From positions 1,364,001 to 1,428,000 of the forward strand of contig NC_013235.1 in assembly GCF_000024365.1 (NCBI RefSeq): 64,000 nucleotides of DNA. The letters run 5' to 3'. This DNA is from Nakamurella multipartita DSM 44233. GTDB lineage: Bacteria; Actinomycetota; Actinomycetes; Mycobacteriales; Nakamurellaceae. A program made the position numbers and the translations under genes. Each line of letters begins with the position of its first letter. The first letter of the stretch is position 1. Below are positions 40,964 to 49,802 of this stretch, in pieces. The notes below the pieces were generated by a model. It was not told the origin of the DNA and searched no databases. It was given only the letters and a program-made list of their open reading frames with translations.

Positions 40964-41092
40964 CGCCCGCCCTGGTGGGTTCGCTGATCGCGGGTTGGCG
41001 GGTCGCGGGTTCGCTGACCGGAAAATCAACGTGCCGTTGGGCAGCCAAGGGTGACCCGTGGTGGTGACCATCGGGTTGAGTGGGTGTCGGGT

Positions 41093-42490
41093 TTAGGCGG
41101 CCGCGGTCAGGGTGACGTTGAAGCCGAGGGCTTCGAGTTGCCGGACGTGGTTACGGGTTCGGCGTCCGATGTCGATGCGTTGGTCGTTGAAGTCGACGCC
41201 GAGGTCGTGGAAGGTCGTGCCGGGGTTGGCGAGCAGGTGCCAGATGATGACAAGGATGGATCGGGCGATGGCGACGATCGTTTTGAGTTTGCCGCGGCGT
41301 TTGATCAGGCGTCGATAGCGTTCTCCCAGGAAGGTTTGGGTCTTGCCGCCGGTCGCGGCCGCTTCACCGAGCACGGCGCGCAGGTAACGGTTGCCCTTGC
41401 CGGTCTTACCGGTTGTTGATCGTTTCCCGGACTGGATCGTGCGGGGGCACAGCCGGGTCCAGGACACCAGATGGCCAGCGGTCGGGAACCGGCTCATGTC
41501 CAGCCCGATCTCGGCGATGATGACCTGTGCGTTGCTTGGGCCGATCCCGGGTATCTGGTCCAGGATCTTGATCATGTCTGCGGCCGTCGGCGGTGTCCGG
41601 CGCTGGGCCGCCTCGTCGGCGGGTGCGTTCGCCCTCGTACCGGGCCGAGTTTGGCCATCCGGTGCGGGGCGGTCCGGATCGGGGGTGTTACCGGCCGGCA
41701 ACCTGGCCAGGAGTGCCTCGATGCGTGCGGTCAGGACGTCGATCTGATCGGTCAGCGTGTCGATCTGATGCAGCAGCATCCGGGCCAGCTCGGCGTGATG
41801 ATCGTCGAACTGACCGGTCAGCGACTCGACCAGGTCGGCGTGCTTGAGCCGCATCCGGCCGCGGGCCATGCCGGCCAGAACCCGCGGGTCCCGCTGGCCC
41901 GCGATCAGGGCCTCAATCATGTCCCGGACGGACAGGGTGTCGATCCTGCTCGCCACGGAGGTGACCTTGATCAGGGCGTCCTCCAGCAGCTTCTCCAGCC
42001 GTTGCCAGTACCTGGTCCGGTCGCCGGTCAGATCGGCCCGCATCCGGGTGTAGTCGCGCAACTGCCGGACCTGCGCTGATGGCACGAACGATGGACGCAA
42101 CAGCCCCTTCTCGGTGAGCTTGGCCAACCACACACTGTCCAGCTTGTCCGTTTTGGGGCGACCGGGGACGTTCTTGACATCGCGGGCATTGACCAACTGC
42201 ACGTCCAGGCCATGAGCTTCCAGCAGATAGAACCAGATCCGCCAGTAGTCCGAGGTCGATTCCAGGGTCACCTTCTCGATGCCCTGGTCTGACAGCTGTG
42301 CGGCCAGGCCCAGGACCGCTCTGGTTCGGGCCGGGACGTCCCAGACTTTGCTCACTCGCCGACCCGTCCCGGACGCGGCTGGTACGCGAACGCAGACTGT
42401 GCCCGAGTCCTTGCCCACGTCGATCGCGCAGACCCGCTGCACGATCTGTTCATGGGGTTCGTCGAGGATCTCCTCGACCTGTTTGGTCAT
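41093..42490 (-). CDS. IS110-family transposase, copy A
   Basis: 465 residues. DEDD RuvC-like domain: Asp in CAIDVGKDSGTVCV, Glu in VTLESTSDYWRIW, Asp pair in KTDKLDSVWLAKL. Middle helices (LARMLLHQIDTLTDQIDVL) and a Pro-rich linker precede the Transposase_20 domain IPGIGPSNAQVIIAEIG, with the catalytic serine region QSGKRSTTGKTGKGNRYL. Complete frame. It carries several substitutions against copy C (for example HEQIV for HERIV, and LARLPAGN for LASLPAGH). Confidence 0.93.
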   Translation of the reverse strand: MTKQVEEILDEPHEQIVQRVCAIDVGKDSGTVCVRVPAASGTGRRVSKVWDVPARTRAVLGLAAQLSDQGIEKVTLESTSDYWRIWFYLLEAHGLDVQLVNARDVKNVPGRPKTDKLDSVWLAKLTEKGLLRPSFVPSAQVRQLRDYTRMRADLTGDRTRYWQRLEKLLEDALIKVTSVASRIDTLSVRDMIEALIAGQRDPRVLAGMARGRMRLKHADLVESLTGQFDDHHAELARMLLHQIDTLTDQIDVLTARIEALLARLPAGNTPDPDRPAPDGQTRPGTRANAPADEAAQRRTPPTAADMIKILDQIPGIGPSNAQVIIAEIGLDMSRFPTAGHLVSWTRLCPRTIQSGKRSTTGKTGKGNRYLRAVLGEAAATGGKTQTFLGERYRRLIKRRGKLKTIVAIARSILVIIWHLLANPGTTFHDLGVDFNDQRIDIGRRTRNHVRQLEALGFNVTLTAAA

Positions 42491-42729
42491 CACACCGCGT
42501 CGCTCCTTCCCTGAGGTGCACCACCGCCACGGCGGGCTGCCCGGGGGCCTCGGTCGGGAACCGAAAATCTGACCGGCGTGCTCGAAGCAACAGTGCGTGA
42601 CCCGTCAAGGTCGGGCCCCGGCGCCAGACTGATCAACGGGCTCGAAGCTCAAGCGAACGAATCGGCGTCGACAGGCAACCCACCACCCATTTTCACGCCG
42701 TCGTGGCGTCACCGGAAGGGACAGGGTGA
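42491..42729 (-). ncRNA. Predicted bridge RNA region of IS110 copy A
   Basis: Non-coding upstream region, almost identical over its first ~200 nt to those of copies B and C, including GTTCGCT, TTGATCAGTC and CCGGTCAG, which match the target halves and the element end. Confidence 0.5.
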
Positions 42730-42786
42730 CTGATCAAAGCCGCGCGGAACCGGACGTTTCCTGGGCCTGGCCGCGGCTTTGATCAG
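42730..42786. repeat. REP-like palindrome, unit 1 (with unoccupied IS110 target)
   Basis: CTGATCAAAGCCGCG (42730-42744) pairs with its exact complement at 42772-42786 around a 27-nt centre. It borders copy A on its left side. On its right it continues GATCAG-CGAACC (42781-42792), the same junction sequence that flanks all three IS110 copies but here uninterrupted. Confidence 0.85.
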
Positions 42787-42809
42787 CGAACCGCGGTGGT
42801 TCGCGGACG

Positions 42810-42860: not shown

Positions 42861-43100
42861 TCACCCTGTCCCTTCCGGTGACGCCACGACGGCGTGAAAA
42901 TGGGTGGTGGGTTGCCTGTCGACGCCGATTCGTTCGCTTGAGCTTCGAGCCCGTTGATCAGTCTGGCGCCGGGGCCCGACCTTGACGGGTCACGCACTGT
43001 TGCTTCGAGCACGCCGGTCAGATTTTCGGTTCCCGACCGAGGCCCCCGGGCAGCCCGCCGTGGTGGTGGTGCACGCTCGGGAAGGGAGACACGCGGTGTG
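42861..43100 (+). ncRNA. Predicted bridge RNA region of IS110 copy B
   Basis: 240-nt upstream region with GTTCGCT (42932-42938), TTGATCAGTC (42954-42963) and CCGGTCAG (43014-43021). These match, respectively, the complement of the right target half, the left target half plus the first two bases of the element, and the right end of the element. Confidence 0.5.
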
Positions 43101-43967
43101 ATGACCAAACAGGTCGAGGAGATCCTCGACGAACCTCACGAACGGATCGTGCAGCGGGTCTGCGCGGTCGACGTGGGCAAGGACTCGGGCACAGTCTGCG
43201 TTCGCGTACCAGCCGCGTCCGGGACGGGTCGGCGAGTGAGCAAAGTCTGGGACGTCCCGGCCCGAACCGGAGCGGTCCTGGGCCTGGCCGCACAGCTGTC
43301 AGACCAGGGCATCGAGAAGGTGACCCTGGAATCGACTTCGGACTACTGGCGGATCTGGTTCTATCTGCTGGAAGCTCATGGCCTGGACGTGCAGTTGGTC
43401 AATGCCCGCGATGTCAAGAACGTCCCCGGTCGTCCCAAAACGGACAAGCTGGACAGTGTGTGGTTGGCCAAGCTCACCGAGAAGGGGCTGCTGCGTCCAT
43501 CGTTCGTGCCATCAGCGCAGATCCGGCAGTTGCGCGACTACACCCGGATGCGGGCCGATCTGACCGGCGACCGGACCAGGTACTGGCAACGGCTGGAGAA
43601 GCTGCTGGAGGACGCCCTGATCAAGGTCACCTCCGTGGCGAGCAGGATCGACACCCTGTCCGTCCGGGACATGATCGAGGCCCTGATCGCGGGCCAGCGG
43701 GACCCGCGGGTTCTGGCCGGCATGGCCCGCGGCCGGATGCGGCTCAAGCACGCCGACCTGGTGTTGACCACCGCTCTGGATGACGGCCGCTGACCTGTCT
43801 TTCGTCATGGGTGCTGCCGACGAACGTGCGCGGGTGTGCTGGCGGGTTGAGTCCGGTCGTCGTCACCGTCAGTGTGACCAGCATCGGAAATGGACAACGG
43901 CCCTCCCGCCGACGTGTCCGGGAAGACCTGTGCGGGAGGGCCGTGCTCGGATGCACGGAGGCACCCG

Positions 43968-44561
43968 TTGGTCACGGTAGAGGCGAATCAGGATCTGGTC
44001 GAGTCCCGGCTGACGGGCGGCGGCGTGCCGTGCCCGGTCTGCCCAGGTGTGCTGGCCCCTTGGGGGTGGGCTCGCCGGCGTGACGTCCGAGGCGTCGGGT
44101 TACTGCGGCCCCGCCGAGCCAGGTGTTCGTCGTGCCTGATCACGCACGTGCTGCTGCCGGTCACGGTGCTGCTGCGGCGGGCCGACGCGGCCGCGGTGAT
44201 CTGGGCGGCGCTGGTCGCCCGGTCGGCCGGCCACGGGCACCGGGCGGTCGCCGTCCTGGTCGGGGCGCCGGCGCCGACGGTCCGGGGCTGGTTGCGACGG
44301 ATGAGCACCCGGTTGGAGCCGGTGCGGGTGCACTTCACCGTCGCTGCCCGGCGGGCCGGGGTGGACCAGCCGGCCCCGGACGCGACTGGCGACGCCTGGC
44401 GGGACGTGGTGGCCGCGGTCGCCGCGGCCTGGGTGGCGATCGCGTCCCGGTTCGGGTCGGCCGGTTTGGTCGGCACAGTGACGGCCGGACAGGTCGCCTG
44501 TGCGTCCTCGGGCGGCCGGCTCCTGTCCCCGGGTTGGCCCCGGCTCTCGACACCGTGTTGA
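43968..44561 (+). CDS. DUF6431-like transposon protein
   Basis: About 197 residues. N-terminal zinc-finger-like cysteines (VPCPVCPGVL, then ARCSSCLITHVLLP) precede a helix-turn-helix-like stretch (LVGAPAPTVRGWLRRMS) and an Ala-rich helical C-terminus. It resembles the DUF6431 proteins that accompany actinobacterial DDE/AAA transposons; recalled, not searched. I choose the TTG at 43968 because CGGAGG lies just upstream; an in-frame ATG at 43890 is possible. It may be a DNA-binding accessory factor for end or target recognition. Confidence 0.65.
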   Translation: MVTVEANQDLVESRLTGGGVPCPVCPGVLAPWGWARRRDVRGVGLLRPRRARCSSCLITHVLLPVTVLLRRADAAAVIWAALVARSAGHGHRAVAVLVGAPAPTVRGWLRRMSTRLEPVRVHFTVAARRAGVDQPAPDATGDAWRDVVAAVAAAWVAIASRFGSAGLVGTVTAGQVACASSGGRLLSPGWPRLSTPC

Positions 44562-44672
44562 TCAACACGAGTTGCCCCTGACGTCACCGGTGTTGGTCCG
44601 GGATCGTCGCGAAGGCCGTTGCCCGGCAACACCTGCCGGGCGGTGAAGCGACGACGAGGACGGGTGTGGTTG

Positions 44673-46154
44673 ATGAGTGTGGACACGGTCAAGCAGCGGG
44701 AACGGGCGCAGCAGATCGCGTTGTTCCGATATCAGTTGATCTGCCCGGCGCTGGAACCGGGCCTGTCGACCAAGCAACGCGGACGGGTCGTTCGGGCGAT
44801 CGCCGACCGGGAACACGACGGCCCGTTCGGCGGCCGGGTCCGATACTCGCGGGAGTCGTTGGACCGGTGGATCCGCCGGTACCGGGCCGGCGGGTTCGAA
44901 GGTCTGTGCCCGTCGCCCCGGGAACCCGGCACCCGGATCGACACCGGCGTGTTCGAGCTGGCCGCCGGTCTGAAACGGGAGAACCCGGCCCGCACGGTCG
45001 CCCAGGTCGCCCGGATCCTGCGATCCTCGACCGGCTGGTCACCGTCGGAAACGACGCTGCTGCGGCATTTCCACCGGCTGGACCTGATGGTGCCCGGCGG
45101 CGCCGGGCCGGCCGTGTTCGGCCGGTTCGAAGCGGCCGATTGCAACGAACGGTGGGTCGGCGACGCCCTGCACGGGCCCAGGGTCGCCGGCCGGAAAACG
45201 TACTTGTTCGCGTTCCTGGACGACCACAGCCGGGTGGCCGTGGGGTATCGGTTCGGGTTCGCCGAGGACACCGTCCGGCTGGCCGCGGCCCTGCAACCCG
45301 CGTTGGGCAGCCGCGGCGTCCCCGGCTCGGTCTACGTCGACAACGGGTCCGCGTTCGTCGACAACTGGCTGCTGCGGGCCTGCGCGGTGCTCGGGATCCG
45401 GCTCGTCCACAGCCGTCCGGGGCAGCCGCAGGGGCGGGGCAAGATCGAACGCTGGTTCCGCAGCGTGCGCGACCAGTTCCTGGTCGAGATCGATGACAGC
45501 ACCGCCGACCAGATCCGGGATACCGGGATGACCCCCGCCGGCGCCCTGCTGGAACTCAACGGGTTGTTCACCGCCTGGGTCGAGGCGTCCTATCACCACC
45601 ACGTGCATTCCGAGACCGGGCAGAGCCCCTTGCAACGCTGGACCGACGGGTGGCAGCGGGCCGGCCGGTCTCCGGCGATGCCGACCCCCGCGGATCTGAC
45701 CGAGGCGTTCCTGTGGTCCGAACAACGCGTGGTCACCAGGACCGCGACGGTGTCGCTGCACGGCAACACCTACCAGGTTCAGGCGGGGCTGGTCGGTCGG
45801 AAAGTCGAGTTGGTGTTCTCCCCGTTCGATCTGGAAACCCTGCGGGTCCGCTACGACGGCCGGGACCACGGGCCGGCGGTGCCGCATCGGATCACCCGGC
45901 ACACCCATCCCAAGGCCAGACCCGAGACCCCTGAACCGGCAACGACACCGCGGACGGGGATCGACTACCTGGCGCTGGTCGCGCAGGACCACCAGCAACA
46001 GATCAGTGCCGACCAGAAGATCAACTATCACGCCCTCTACCCAGGTGAGCTGCCCGGGCAGCGCAGCATCGACGACGCCCTGGCCGACCTCAACGGCAAC
46101 GACGGCAACGACGGCAACGACGGCAACGACGATGGTCAGGCGGTGGCCCGGTGA
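44673..46154 (+). CDS. DDE-type integrase/transposase (rve, TnsB/TniA-like)
   Basis: About 493 residues. N-terminal helix-turn-helix domains (SRESLDRWIRRYRAGGFEGL, then GWSPSETTLLRHFHRL). Catalytic rve core with Asp in RWVGDALHG, Asp in SVYVDNGSAFVDN, and Glu in GRGKIERWFRSVRDQF. A C-terminal beta-barrel Mu-like region follows (VSLHGNTYQVQAGLVGRKVE), then a tail with four GND repeats. It cuts and joins the transposon ends. The ATG at 44673 is chosen; the frame is open to 44619. The stop overlaps the ATPase GTG (GTGA). Confidence 0.9.
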   Translation: MSVDTVKQRERAQQIALFRYQLICPALEPGLSTKQRGRVVRAIADREHDGPFGGRVRYSRESLDRWIRRYRAGGFEGLCPSPREPGTRIDTGVFELAAGLKRENPARTVAQVARILRSSTGWSPSETTLLRHFHRLDLMVPGGAGPAVFGRFEAADCNERWVGDALHGPRVAGRKTYLFAFLDDHSRVAVGYRFGFAEDTVRLAAALQPALGSRGVPGSVYVDNGSAFVDNWLLRACAVLGIRLVHSRPGQPQGRGKIERWFRSVRDQFLVEIDDSTADQIRDTGMTPAGALLELNGLFTAWVEASYHHHVHSETGQSPLQRWTDGWQRAGRSPAMPTPADLTEAFLWSEQRVVTRTATVSLHGNTYQVQAGLVGRKVELVFSPFDLETLRVRYDGRDHGPAVPHRITRHTHPKARPETPEPATTPRTGIDYLALVAQDHQQQISADQKINYHALYPGELPGQRSIDDALADLNGNDGNDGNDGNDDGQAVAR

Positions 46155-46966
46155 GCGTGCAACGCCTTCAGGCCCACTACGGCTTCACCCGGATGCCGTT
46201 CGGCCGGAACCTGGCCCCGGGCATGCTGCATCGGCACCGCGGACTGGGCGAAGCGATCGCCCGGATCAGCTGGTGCGTCGACCAACACGCCCTCGGCGTG
46301 ATCACCGGCGAGGTCGGCGCCGGCAAGACCGTCGCCGTCCGCGCCGCCACCGCCGCCCTGGACAGCAGCCGGCACGTCGTCATCTACCTGCCCAACCCGT
46401 CCGTCGGGGTCCGCGGCATGCTCCACCACATCGTCGCCGCCCTGGGCCGGACCCCGTCGTTCTACACCTCGATCCTGGCCCCGCAAGCCGCCGACGCCCT
46501 CGCGGCCGAACACGCCGAACGCGGCCGCACCCCCGTGGTCGTGATCGATGAGGCGCACCTGTTGGACAACCAGCAACTCGAAGCACTGCGCATGCTGTCC
46601 AACCACGACATGGACTCCGGCAGCCCGTTCGCCGCGCTGCTCGTCGGGCAACCCACCCTGCGGCACCGGCTGCGCCTCGGCGTGCTCGCCGCGCTGGACC
46701 AACGGATCTCGGTGCGCTGCACCCTGACCGGGATGACCGACCAGGAAACCGCGGACTACCTCACCCACCACCTCAAGATCGCCGGCCGCAGCGACACCCT
46801 GTTCAGCGGCGACGCCACCACCCTGATCCACAACGCCGCCCGCGGCTACCCCCGCGCCATCAACAACCTCGCGATCAACGCCCTGACCGCGGCGTTCGCC
46901 CGCAACCAGGCCATCGTCGACGAGAAATCAGCCCGGGCCGCGATCGCCGAAACAGGAGGCGAATGA
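46151..46966 (+). CDS. ExeA/TnsC-like AAA+ ATPase of the transposon
   Basis: 271 residues. HYGFTRMPFGRNLAPGML at the N-terminus is typical of the ExeA/TniB-type AAA family. Walker A GEVGAGKTVAV, Walker B TPVVVIDEAHLLDN, sensor 1 FAALLVGQPTLRHRL, and Arg finger region LDQRISVRC. It probably selects target DNA and activates the DDE transposase. GTG start overlapping the transposase stop. It lies immediately before the terminator near the right end. Confidence 0.9.
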   Translation: MSVQRLQAHYGFTRMPFGRNLAPGMLHRHRGLGEAIARISWCVDQHALGVITGEVGAGKTVAVRAATAALDSSRHVVIYLPNPSVGVRGMLHHIVAALGRTPSFYTSILAPQAADALAAEHAERGRTPVVVIDEAHLLDNQQLEALRMLSNHDMDSGSPFAALLVGQPTLRHRLRLGVLAALDQRISVRCTLTGMTDQETADYLTHHLKIAGRSDTLFSGDATTLIHNAARGYPRAINNLAINALTAAFARNQAIVDEKSARAAIAETGGE

Positions 46967-47003
46967 CCCTCACATTGACGACGACCCCGCCGCCATGACC
47001 ACC

Positions 47004-47036
47004 AAGGCCCCGCCCACCACCACCGGGCGGGGCCTT
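47004..47036 (+). terminator. Transposon terminator hairpin
   Basis: AAGGCCCCGCCC (47004-47015) pairs with GGGCGGGGCCTT (47025-47036), followed by a short T run. It lies about 40 bp after the ATPase stop, inside the right end. Confidence 0.75.
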
Positions 47037-47954
47037 TCAACACCCAGACCATCGTCAACAACGACGATGCCAACATCGCCATGTAGAGCGCCGGTCAACA
47101 CCTGGTCGAGTCGCTGACCGGTCAGTTCGACGATCATCACGCCGAGCTGGCCCGGATGCTGCTGCATCAGATCGACACGCTGACCGATCAGATCGACGTC
47201 CTGACCGCACGCATCGAGGCACTCCTGGCCAGCTTGCCGGCCGGTCATACCCCCGATCCGGACCGCCCCGCACCGGATGGCCAAGCTCGGCCCGGTACGG
47301 GGGCGAACGCACCCGCCGACGAGGCGGCCCAGCGCCGGAAACCGCCGACGGCCGCAGACATGATCAAGATCCTGGACCAGATACCCGGGATCGGCCCGAG
47401 CAACGCACAGGTCATCATCGCCGAGATCGGGCTGGACATGAGCCGGTTCCCGACCGCTGGCCATCTGGTGTCCTGGACCCGGCTGTGCCCCCGCACGATC
47501 CAGTCCGGGAAACGATCAACCACCGGTAAGACCGGCAAGGGCAACCGTTACCTGCGCGCCGTGCTTGGTGAAGCGGCCGCGACCGGCGGCAAGACCCAAA
47601 CCTTCCTGGGAGAACGCTATCGACGCCTGATCAAACGCCGCGGCAAACTCAAGACGATCGTCGCGATCGCCCGATCCATCCTTGTCATCATCTGGCACCT
47701 GCTCGCCAACCCCGGCACGACCTTCCACGACCTCGGCGTCGACTTCAACGACCAACGCATCGACATCGGACGCCGAACCCGTAACCACGTCCGGCAACTC
47801 GAAGCCCTCGGCTTCAACGTCACCCTGACCGCGGCCGCCTAAACCCGACACCCACTCAACCCGATGGTCACCACCACGGGTCACCCTTGGCTGCCCAACG
47901 GCACGTTGATTTTCCGGTCAGCGAACCGCCGGGGGCCGCGCTGGTTCGCGGACG

Positions 47955-48005: not shown

Positions 48006-48245
48006 TCACCCTGTCCCTTCCGGTGACGCCACGACGGCGTGAAAATGGGTGGTGGGTTGCCTGTCGACGCCGATTCGTTCGCTTGAGCTTCGAGCCCGTT
48101 GATCAGTCTGGCGCCGGGGCCCGACCTTGACGGGTCACGCACTGTTGCTTCGAGCACGCCGGTCAGATTTTCGGTTCCCGACCGAGGCCCCCGGGCAGCC
48201 CGCCGTGGTGGTGGTGCACGCTCGGGAAGGGAGACACGCGGTGTG
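48006..48245 (+). ncRNA. Predicted bridge RNA region of IS110 copy C
   Basis: Contains GTTCGCT at 48077-48083, TTGATCAGTC at 48099-48108 and CCGGTCAG at 48159-48166. The first two lie on either side of a small GC-rich turn, as the two guides of a target-binding loop do; the third matches the element's right end. RNA ends and folding are not determined. Confidence 0.5.
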
Positions 48246-49643
48246 ATGACCAAACAGGTCGAGGAGATCCTCGACGAACCTCACGAACGGATCGTGCAGC
48301 GGGTCTGCGCGGTCGACGTGGGCAAGGACTCGGGCACAGTCTGCGTTCGCGTACCAGCCGCGTCCGGGACGGGTCGGCGAGTGAGCAAAGTCTGGGACGT
48401 CCCGGCCCGAACCGGAGCGGTCCTGGGCCTGGCCGCACAGCTGTCAGACCAGGGCATCGAGAAGGTGACCCTGGAATCGACTTCGGACTACTGGCGGATC
48501 TGGTTCTATCTGCTGGAAGCTCATGGCCTGGACGTGCAGTTGGTCAATGCCCGCGATGTCAAGAACGTCCCCGGTCGTCCCAAAACGGACAAGCTGGACA
48601 GTGTGTGGTTGGCCAAGCTCACCGAGAAGGGGCTGCTGCGTCCATCGTTCGTGCCATCAGCGCAGATCCGGCAGTTGCGCGACTACACCCGGATGCGGGC
48701 CGATCTGACCGGCGACCGGACCAGGTACTGGCAACGGCTGGAGAAGCTGCTGGAGGACGCCCTGATCAAGGTCACCTCCGTGGCGAGCAGGATCGACACC
48801 CTGTCCGTCCGGGACATGATCGAGGCCCTGATCGCGGGCCAGCGGGACCCGCGGGTTCTGGCCGGCATGGCCCGCGGCCGGATGCGGCTCAAGCACGCCG
48901 ACCTGGTCGAGTCGCTGACCGGTCAGTTCGACGATCATCACGCCGAGCTGGCCCGGATGCTGCTGCATCAGATCGACACGCTGACCGATCAGATCGACGT
49001 CCTGACCGCACGCATCGAGGCACTCCTGGCCAGCTTGCCGGCCGGTCATACCCCCGATCCGGACCGCCCCGCACCGGATGGCCAAGCTCGGCCCGGTACG
49101 GGGGCGAACGCACCCGCCGACGAGGCGGCCCAGCGCCGGAAACCGCCGACGGCCGCAGACATGATCAAGATCCTGGACCAGATACCCGGGATCGGCCCGA
49201 GCAACGCACAGGTCATCATCGCCGAGATCGGGCTGGACATGAGCCGGTTCCCGACCGCTGGCCATCTGGTGTCCTGGACCCGGCTGTGCCCCCGCACGAT
49301 CCAGTCCGGGAAACGATCAACCACCGGTAAGACCGGCAAGGGCAACCGTTACCTGCGCGCCGTGCTTGGTGAAGCGGCCGCGACCGGCGGCAAGACCCAA
49401 ACCTTCCTGGGAGAACGCTATCGACGCCTGATCAAACGCCGCGGCAAACTCAAGACGATCGTCGCGATCGCCCGATCCATCCTTGTCATCATCTGGCACC
49501 TGCTCGCCAACCCCGGCACGACCTTCCACGACCTCGGCGTCGACTTCAACGACCAACGCATCGACATCGGACGCCGAACCCGTAACCACGTCCGGCAACT
49601 CGAAGCCCTCGGCTTCAACGTCACCCTGACCGCGGCCGCCTAA
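48246..49643 (+). CDS. IS110-family transposase, copy C
   Basis: 465 residues, complete. DEDD residues are in CAVDVGKDSG, VTLESTSDYW and KTDKLDSVWLAKL; the serine-containing C-terminal domain is IPGIGPSNAQVI..QSGKRSTTGKTG. The frame is open 147 bp upstream into the RNA region, but that part carries the RNA-like conservation and ATG 48246 follows GGGAAGGGAG, so I start there. It is the only unbroken + strand copy. Confidence 0.94.
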   Translation: MTKQVEEILDEPHERIVQRVCAVDVGKDSGTVCVRVPAASGTGRRVSKVWDVPARTGAVLGLAAQLSDQGIEKVTLESTSDYWRIWFYLLEAHGLDVQLVNARDVKNVPGRPKTDKLDSVWLAKLTEKGLLRPSFVPSAQIRQLRDYTRMRADLTGDRTRYWQRLEKLLEDALIKVTSVASRIDTLSVRDMIEALIAGQRDPRVLAGMARGRMRLKHADLVESLTGQFDDHHAELARMLLHQIDTLTDQIDVLTARIEALLASLPAGHTPDPDRPAPDGQARPGTGANAPADEAAQRRKPPTAADMIKILDQIPGIGPSNAQVIIAEIGLDMSRFPTAGHLVSWTRLCPRTIQSGKRSTTGKTGKGNRYLRAVLGEAAATGGKTQTFLGERYRRLIKRRGKLKTIVAIARSILVIIWHLLANPGTTFHDLGVDFNDQRIDIGRRTRNHVRQLEALGFNVTLTAAA

Positions 49644-49802
49644 ACCCGACACCCACTCAACCCGATGGTCACCACCACGGGTCACCCTTGGCTGCCCAAC
49701 GGCACGTTGATTTTCCGGTCAGCGAACCGTCAGGGAAGTGTCACCGCCGCCGCGACAGCGCCGCCCGCCGGTGCCGAACCCGCGTCGGCCCGGCGGGCGG
49801 GC

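Follow-up and report, generated by a model that had tools for sequence, protein, structure and literature searches.

Introduction

How an insertion sequence (IS) of the IS110 family that occurs three times in a stretch of the Nakamurella multipartita DSM 44233 genome recognises its insertion sites is the question raised by this locus. The stretch, hereafter the window, comprises 64,000 nucleotides of contig NC_013235.1 (positions 1,364,001 to 1,428,000), and the coordinates of features given below are window positions unless a locus or the genome is named. An earlier note on this DNA had proposed that the region in front of the transposase gene contains guides of a bridge RNA that match the target and the end of the element. 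The analysis points, with high confidence, to an element whose upstream bridge RNA is predicted to guide both target halves and the right end. Compared with IS621, these guides stand in reversed order.

Two groups of such elements have been described. According to the text of Siddiquee and colleagues (PMC11187229), the guide order is reversed between the IS110 and IS1111 groups. ISEc21 has the bottom-strand match first and its RNA upstream, and IS1111 elements have the top-strand match first and their RNA downstream. Durrant and colleagues (PMC11208160) state in their text that the phylogenetic relation between these groups can be closely predicted from where the RNA lies.

Matches upstream of the transposase gene

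Copies A, B and C carry GCGGCTTTGATCAG on the left and CGAACC on the right in all three cases; the flank comparison bears out the earlier description of the copies as lying between GGCTTTGATCAG and CGAACC. Three upstream matches to the target and the end had also been reported. Each is found in copy C at the place given for it and only once within 48030-48245, with TTGATCAGTC at 48099, GTTCGCT at 48077 and CCGGTCAG at 48159. In 20,000 dinucleotide shuffles of this region, TTGATCAG appeared in 32, GTTCGCT in 429 and CCGGTCAG in 153. At least two matches appeared together in 2 shuffles, and all three in none.

Guides and their DNA in the family

Homologues were taken from 20 of the 397 genomes of the order (E <= 1e-60), together with the best 80 loci from a wider contig search. 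Few full-length relatives were present in the 17 genomes of the genus that were searched. A profile of the non-coding region gave 156 hits in 145 loci, many of which overlap, representing 86 distinct RNAs; a multi-copy relative in Ktedonobacter was not matched by it. In three loci, a second profile match lies downstream of the transposase (L159 1811-1942, L173 3859-3991, L207 3934-4064); it may represent a second RNA or belong to a neighbouring element. The permutation tests described below were made with unique guides and with no tree modelled.

For the left flank, 82 of the 86 RNAs had a guide; at least 100 upstream bases were available for 76 of these, which gave 63 unique guides. Within the 150 upstream bases, the best match averaged 6.84 of 8 for an element's own guide and 5.39 for the guides of others, and the best of 10,000 permutations reached 5.75. 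Own scores lay between 4 and 8 and reached at least 6 in 61 of 63 cases, and the gap for the reverse complement was small (5.51 versus 5.35). Most right ends consist of a constant TTTTC-like stretch followed by seven bases that are copied in the RNA. The right-end guide scored 7.19 in its own element versus 5.92 in others (62 elements; reverse complement 5.84), with 2 of the 35 distinct guides out of register. For the right flank, tested in 58 elements, own guides scored 5.03 and others' 4.13, and none of 20,000 permutations was as high. The same holds for the anchored comparison with the core excluded (2.84 versus 1.71 of 6; n=57; 0 of 20,000).

A scan of all RNA columns led to the same places. 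Positions 48100-48106 track the left flank from -7 to -1, 48107 and 48108 track the left end at +1 and +2, 48160-48166 track the right end, and 48167 tracks the first base of the right flank. In these scans, the left flank and the right end were positioned with help of the guide, the left end and the right flank independently.

The two bases after the left guide resemble a handshake guide; the earlier note had listed them as the first two bases of the element. In IS621, handshake guides just past the core pair with the partner DNA after strand exchange, according to the text of PMC11208158. In 58 elements with unique guides, the left boundary was placed where at least 6 of 7 guide bases matched at a plausible distance. 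The two RNA bases then agree with the first and second base of the element in 97% and 79% of cases, respectively (permuted 58% and 30%; 0 of 2,000 permutations each). The third base gives no signal (17% versus 19% permuted). The donor-loop counterpart was compared with the right flank in 51 elements: the first base agrees in 49% versus 25% (p 0.0002), the second in 29% versus 21% (p 0.07).

Nine multi-copy elements were also read by eye. The left guide fits in all nine, sometimes with one mismatch. The right guide fits in the N. multipartita element, in G369, in G118 and in a five-copy element of the same genome, and partly in G259; no clear fit was seen in G334, G382 and Mycobacterium SM1. 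In G369, G382, G259, Mycobacterium SM1 and the five-copy element, the left boundary was taken partly from the guide match, because the flank itself is shared and copy comparison alone placed the boundary further out.

Predicted fold of the RNA

A consensus fold was derived from an alignment of 37 relatives chosen by the authors. It comprises an outer helix of ten pairs, a target stem and a short donor stem, the single outer helix enclosing both loops, and all three guides fall in its unpaired columns. Two-sided compensated changes occur at 13 pairs. Overall, 95.4% of the cells are paired, and 76 cells changed on both sides versus 21.8 in shuffled alignments, with none of 500 shuffles as high. 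Sliding the helix partners lowers pairing to 31-55%. The outer helix recurs in the single-sequence fold of 48054-48207. With guides that track their DNA across the family and lie unpaired in the consensus fold, the proposal that the matches are bridge RNA guides is supported.

Transposase and guide order

The transposase, which also matches NCBIfam NF033542, has IS110-family domains and residues. D24, E77, D115, D118 and S354 align with D11, E60, D102, D105 and S241, the catalytic residues named for IS621 in the text of PMC11208158. Relatives with solved structures, found by sequence, are IS621 and ISCro4. Insertion is site-specific, in a single orientation and without target duplication, as in the IS110 family. 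The RNA region lies upstream of the transposase, as in the IS110 group; with the stop at 49643 and the right end at 49722, the element lacks the downstream RNA of the IS1111 group.

The guide order is that of the other group. Two Escherichia coli loci of IS621 served as control. Their left flank fits the 5' target guide at 8 of 9 bases and their right end fits the 5' donor guide at 8 of 8, both in each locus. The 3' target guide agrees with the right flank at 7 of 8 bases in one locus and does not fit it in the other. In the N. multipartita element, the left flank and the right end are matched by the 3' guides, i.e., opposite to IS621. The top-strand guide thus lies 5' of the bottom-strand guide, as in the IS1111 group, and not 3' of the bottom-strand (left-target) guide as in the IS110 group. 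With its RNA upstream and the top-strand match in first place, this family uncouples RNA position from guide order. The two-base handshake after the core of the 3' guide is of the IS621 type. These bases sit where the geometry of IS621, turned round, predicts them, which adds support for the reversed orientation.

Compared with IS621 as described in the text of PMC11208160 and PMC11208158, the element shares an upstream bridge RNA that has target and donor loops, guides whose 3' ends lie at the core, the core in both target guides, two handshake bases, the DEDD and serine residues, and insertion in repeated extragenic palindromes. It differs in its reversed guide order relative to the ends, its top-strand core AG, its larger transposase (465 versus 326 amino acids), the lack of a detectable left-end guide in the donor loop, and the one outer helix around both loops. 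The seekRNA of ISEc21, in the text of PMC11187229, likewise comes from an upstream non-coding region and matches both target strands, but with the bottom-strand match first. ISArsp3, named in an Arthrobacter plasmid annotation, has a transposase 42% identical and a different target. By eye it shows the same plan, with AAGTGAG shared by the left flank and the 3' guide, TT by the left end and the handshake, and ATGTCAG by the right end and the 3' donor guide.

No report of this guide order with an upstream RNA was found in the text passages reached by the literature searches, figures and supplements (e.g., for ISAar29) lying outside this scope. The IS110 passages of PMC12500396, PMC12045711, PMC11578231, PMC9769881 and PMC3718332 name neither this guide order nor an IS110 derivative.

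Copies and targets in the genome

In the N. multipartita genome, a single contig of 6,060,298 base pairs (bp), the full left region occurs 11 times and an 89-bp derivative 7 times. This derivative is non-autonomous, without RNA or transposase, and retains the first 42 bases (with 3 differences) and the last 13 bases of the element; it is presumably mobilised in trans. The left flank is exactly TTGATCAG in 10 of the 11 full-left-region copies and in 6 of the 7 derivatives. The right flank reads CGAACC in 8 and CGAAGC in 1 of the 11 full-left-region copies; among the 7 derivatives, these counts are 4 and 2. Six of the seven derivatives lie at TTGATCAG|CGAA. When junctions are read against the empty site, 16 of 18 insertions have an exact left half, and 15 of 18 have CGAACC or CGAAGC on the right. 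One exception is the derivative L018, located at TTCATCAG|CGAGGC within what appears by eye to be a sugar-transporter permease gene. As a contrast, another IS110 element, present in this genome in four copies (L075-L078), was inspected, and its target is too loose to read.

Exact unoccupied TTTGATCAGCGAA sites occur 21 times in the genome; the reversed pattern, used as control, does not occur. Several empty targets sit in repeats about 84 bp apart, some in both orientations (genome positions 3664471-3664656, 3802245-3802430, 5055743-5055979 and others). These repeats resemble the palindromic repeats that IS621 targets.

Recognition of the left end

Only one donor half, the right end, has a guide, in contrast to the IS621 type with both halves guided; for the left end, this statement reflects the absence of a signal. 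Beyond the two handshake bases, the family scan found no run of RNA columns matching the left end, only a lone column at z 4.5. A left-end guide in the 5' strand of the donor loop was considered and rejected, as it gave no signal (n=35-58).

Both ends carry a short repeat. GAAAAT is present in the left end of 40 of 58 elements, and ATTTTC beside the guided right end in 27 of 43. The two sides covary weakly (repeat length 6.05 versus 5.31, p 0.0002, n=43), with L085, L091 and L157 deviating. At about 6 bp, the repeat is shorter than the 11-13 bp of IS1111 subterminal inverted repeats. Contacts at the repeat may substitute for the missing left-end guide.

Proposed mechanism

In the proposed mechanism, the upstream non-coding region would be transcribed into a bridge RNA and bound by the DEDD/serine recombinase. 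The target loop would pair with both halves of TTGATCAG|CGAAC, and the 3' side of the donor loop with CGGTCAG at the right end. Each of these three predicted pairings includes the core dinucleotide, which reads AG on the top strand of the element and CT on the bottom strand. After strand exchange, the TC bases could pair with the left end. On the RNA side, the predicted geometry does not differ from that of IS621: CT closes the 5' guide and AG the 3' guide, and the handshake bases follow directly. What appears to have changed is the orientation of the transposase-RNA cassette, which would be inverted between the ends, so that the 5' guide reads the right flank and the 3' guide the left flank. 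The donor loop would not read the left end, which is probably recognised by way of its hairpin/GAAAAT region; together with ATTTTC at the right end, this region makes up a short inverted repeat.

Evaluation of the evidence and of other explanations

Several observations weigh against this interpretation. Single-sequence folds are no better than shuffles (z +1.32, and z +0.11 for 48054-48207), and an Rfam search gave no family match. The earlier note had regarded guides in stems as counter-evidence. They are not seen there in the consensus fold of 37 relatives, and the single-sequence fold of copy C over 48054-48207 pairs parts of both target guides. Among the distinct RNAs, 23 of 86 stand outside the left-flank test and 28 of 86 were dropped from the right-flank test. 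The right-flank signal is weak, four core-adjacent bases being significant and a fifth borderline when read by position (n=40), and the right flanks of a six-copy element in Kibdelosporangium show no match to the 5' guide by eye. Isolated scan columns reach z 4 to 5 without evident meaning, from which it follows that relatedness inflates the scans.

Copies at unrelated sites had likewise been named as a possible objection. This objection holds only in part. Copy L011 lies at TTGATCAG|CACCAT, within an apparent amino-acid permease gene (by eye), and with the same RNA its site is matched on the left half alone. Copies L003 and L004 (L212, genome positions 4879800-4884200) form a tandem, head to tail, in which the right end of one copy adjoins the left end of the other directly, without a spacer. 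This inner junction replaces one left and one right flank, and the tandem may be another insertion matched on the left half only. Judging by L011 and possibly the tandem, the right target half looks permissive.

Could the RNA have the ordinary IS621 order, with the matches misread, e.g., because the RNA comes from the other strand? The upstream location, as in IS621 and ISEc21, agrees with this, and no other support was found. The IS621 order was tried on 58 relatives and gave no signal (3.84 versus 3.89; 4.22 versus 4.24). The pair table has 122 G-U versus 9 A-C cells, favouring the plus strand, on which the fold was predicted and towards which it is hence biased; on the minus strand, the core would lie at the 5' ends of the guides, in contrast to the IS621 control. 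The ordinary order is considered very improbable. Slightly less probable still is that the matches are DNA repeats, left by self-insertion or serving alignment at the DNA level. Cases that fit exist: an element of the same kind is inserted at the left-target guide in Kibdelosporangium L147 (near 2255) and in E. coli IS621 L210 (near 2559), and IS621 L209 (near 2572) has one 13 bases further inside the target loop. Leftover repeats are at odds, however, with a left guide, right-end guide and handshake that keep fixed places in a fold with 13 pairs changed on both sides and that vary with their DNA among elements. Moreover, experiments described in the text of PMC11208160 and PMC11187229 show that IS621 and ISEc21, which are relatives, use such an RNA. 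The same insertions mean that the guide gene itself can serve as a target (L147 and L210, and L209 within the target loop).

A stronger competitor, still judged unlikely, is an IS1111-type element whose non-coding region was relocated upstream. As described in the text of PMC11187229, the IS1111 seekRNA elements ISEc11, ISPa11 and ISKpn4 share with the present element the top-strand match 5' of the bottom-strand match and a subterminal inverted repeat, here with covarying sides, and ISMtsp17 is an IS1111 relative with an upstream region. The same text gives a downstream RNA, transposases of 330-350 amino acids (here 465) and repeats of usually 11-13 bp located 7 bp from the left end (here 35 bp away). 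This comparison relies on published descriptions of IS1111 elements. The preferred interpretation remains an IS110-family element with an upstream bridge RNA in reversed guide order.

Features of the element

The coordinates are collected in Table 1. The transposon that interrupts copy B has the ends GTTGACC/GGTCAAC and carries genes for an rve/Mu-C transposase and an AAA ATPase; with copy C as comparison, a 7-bp duplication (ACCTGGT) is seen.

Table 1 Positions of the element copies, the predicted bridge RNA and its putative guides in the window
Feature	Position	Strand	Remarks
Predicted bridge RNA core	48054-48201	+	Closing outer helix 48054-48063 with 48192-48201; consensus fold, 10 of 10 outer pairs changed on both sides
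Predicted target-binding stem-loop	48064-48117	+	Stem 48064-48071 with 48110-48117, loop 48072-48109; consensus fold
Putative 5' target guide GTTCGCT	48077-48083	+	Reverse complement of core and right flank (AGCGAAC); family signal at 4 positions, fifth borderline, plus core
Putative 3' target guide TTGATCAG	48099-48106	+	Same strand as left flank and core
Putative target-loop handshake guide TC	48107-48108	+	Identical to the first two bases of the element
Predicted donor loop, 5' strand (approximate)	48131-48145	+	No left-end match detected in the family
Putative 3' donor guide CGGTCAG	48160-48166	+	Same-strand match to the element's right end
Putative donor-loop handshake position	48167	+	Equals first right-flank base above chance in the family; mismatched in copy C (A versus C)
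Left subterminal repeat GAAAAT	48041-48046	+	Retained in the 89-bp derivative
Right subterminal repeat ATTTTC	49710-49715	+	Adjoins the guided right end; retained in the 89-bp derivative
IS110 transposase, 465 amino acids	48246-49643	+	PF01548 and PF02371
Copy C, IS110-family element	48006-49722	+	1717 bp; ends TCACCCTG ... TTTTCCGGTCAG; boundaries from copies and empty site
Copy A, same element as copy C	41014-42729	-	1716 bp
Copy B, same element as copy C	42861-47921	+	Split by a 3.3-kb transposon at 43763-47099
Unoccupied target site GGCTTTGATCAGCGAACC	42775-42792	+	Between copies A and B

Conclusions

The element and its relatives combine one feature of each described group. This suggests that RNA position and guide order, which were thought to be linked, can apparently be mixed, and the change could be explained by inverting or moving the ends instead of moving the RNA. 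Taken together, the evidence tips somewhat towards a widespread family, common in actinobacteria, that would represent a third bridge RNA architecture, with an upstream RNA in IS1111 order. In this joint proposal, the cassette is inverted, RNA position and guide order are independent, the bottom strand is cut first, and the RNA guides one donor half only, recognition of the other depending on a short inverted repeat.

The family supplies many natural pairs of guide and target, with cores that read as AG, TG, GA and AA. A two-base handshake rule is visible over 58 elements, and specification appears loose in the right half of the target and over most of the left end. These properties are relevant to the choice and reprogramming of bridge recombinases.
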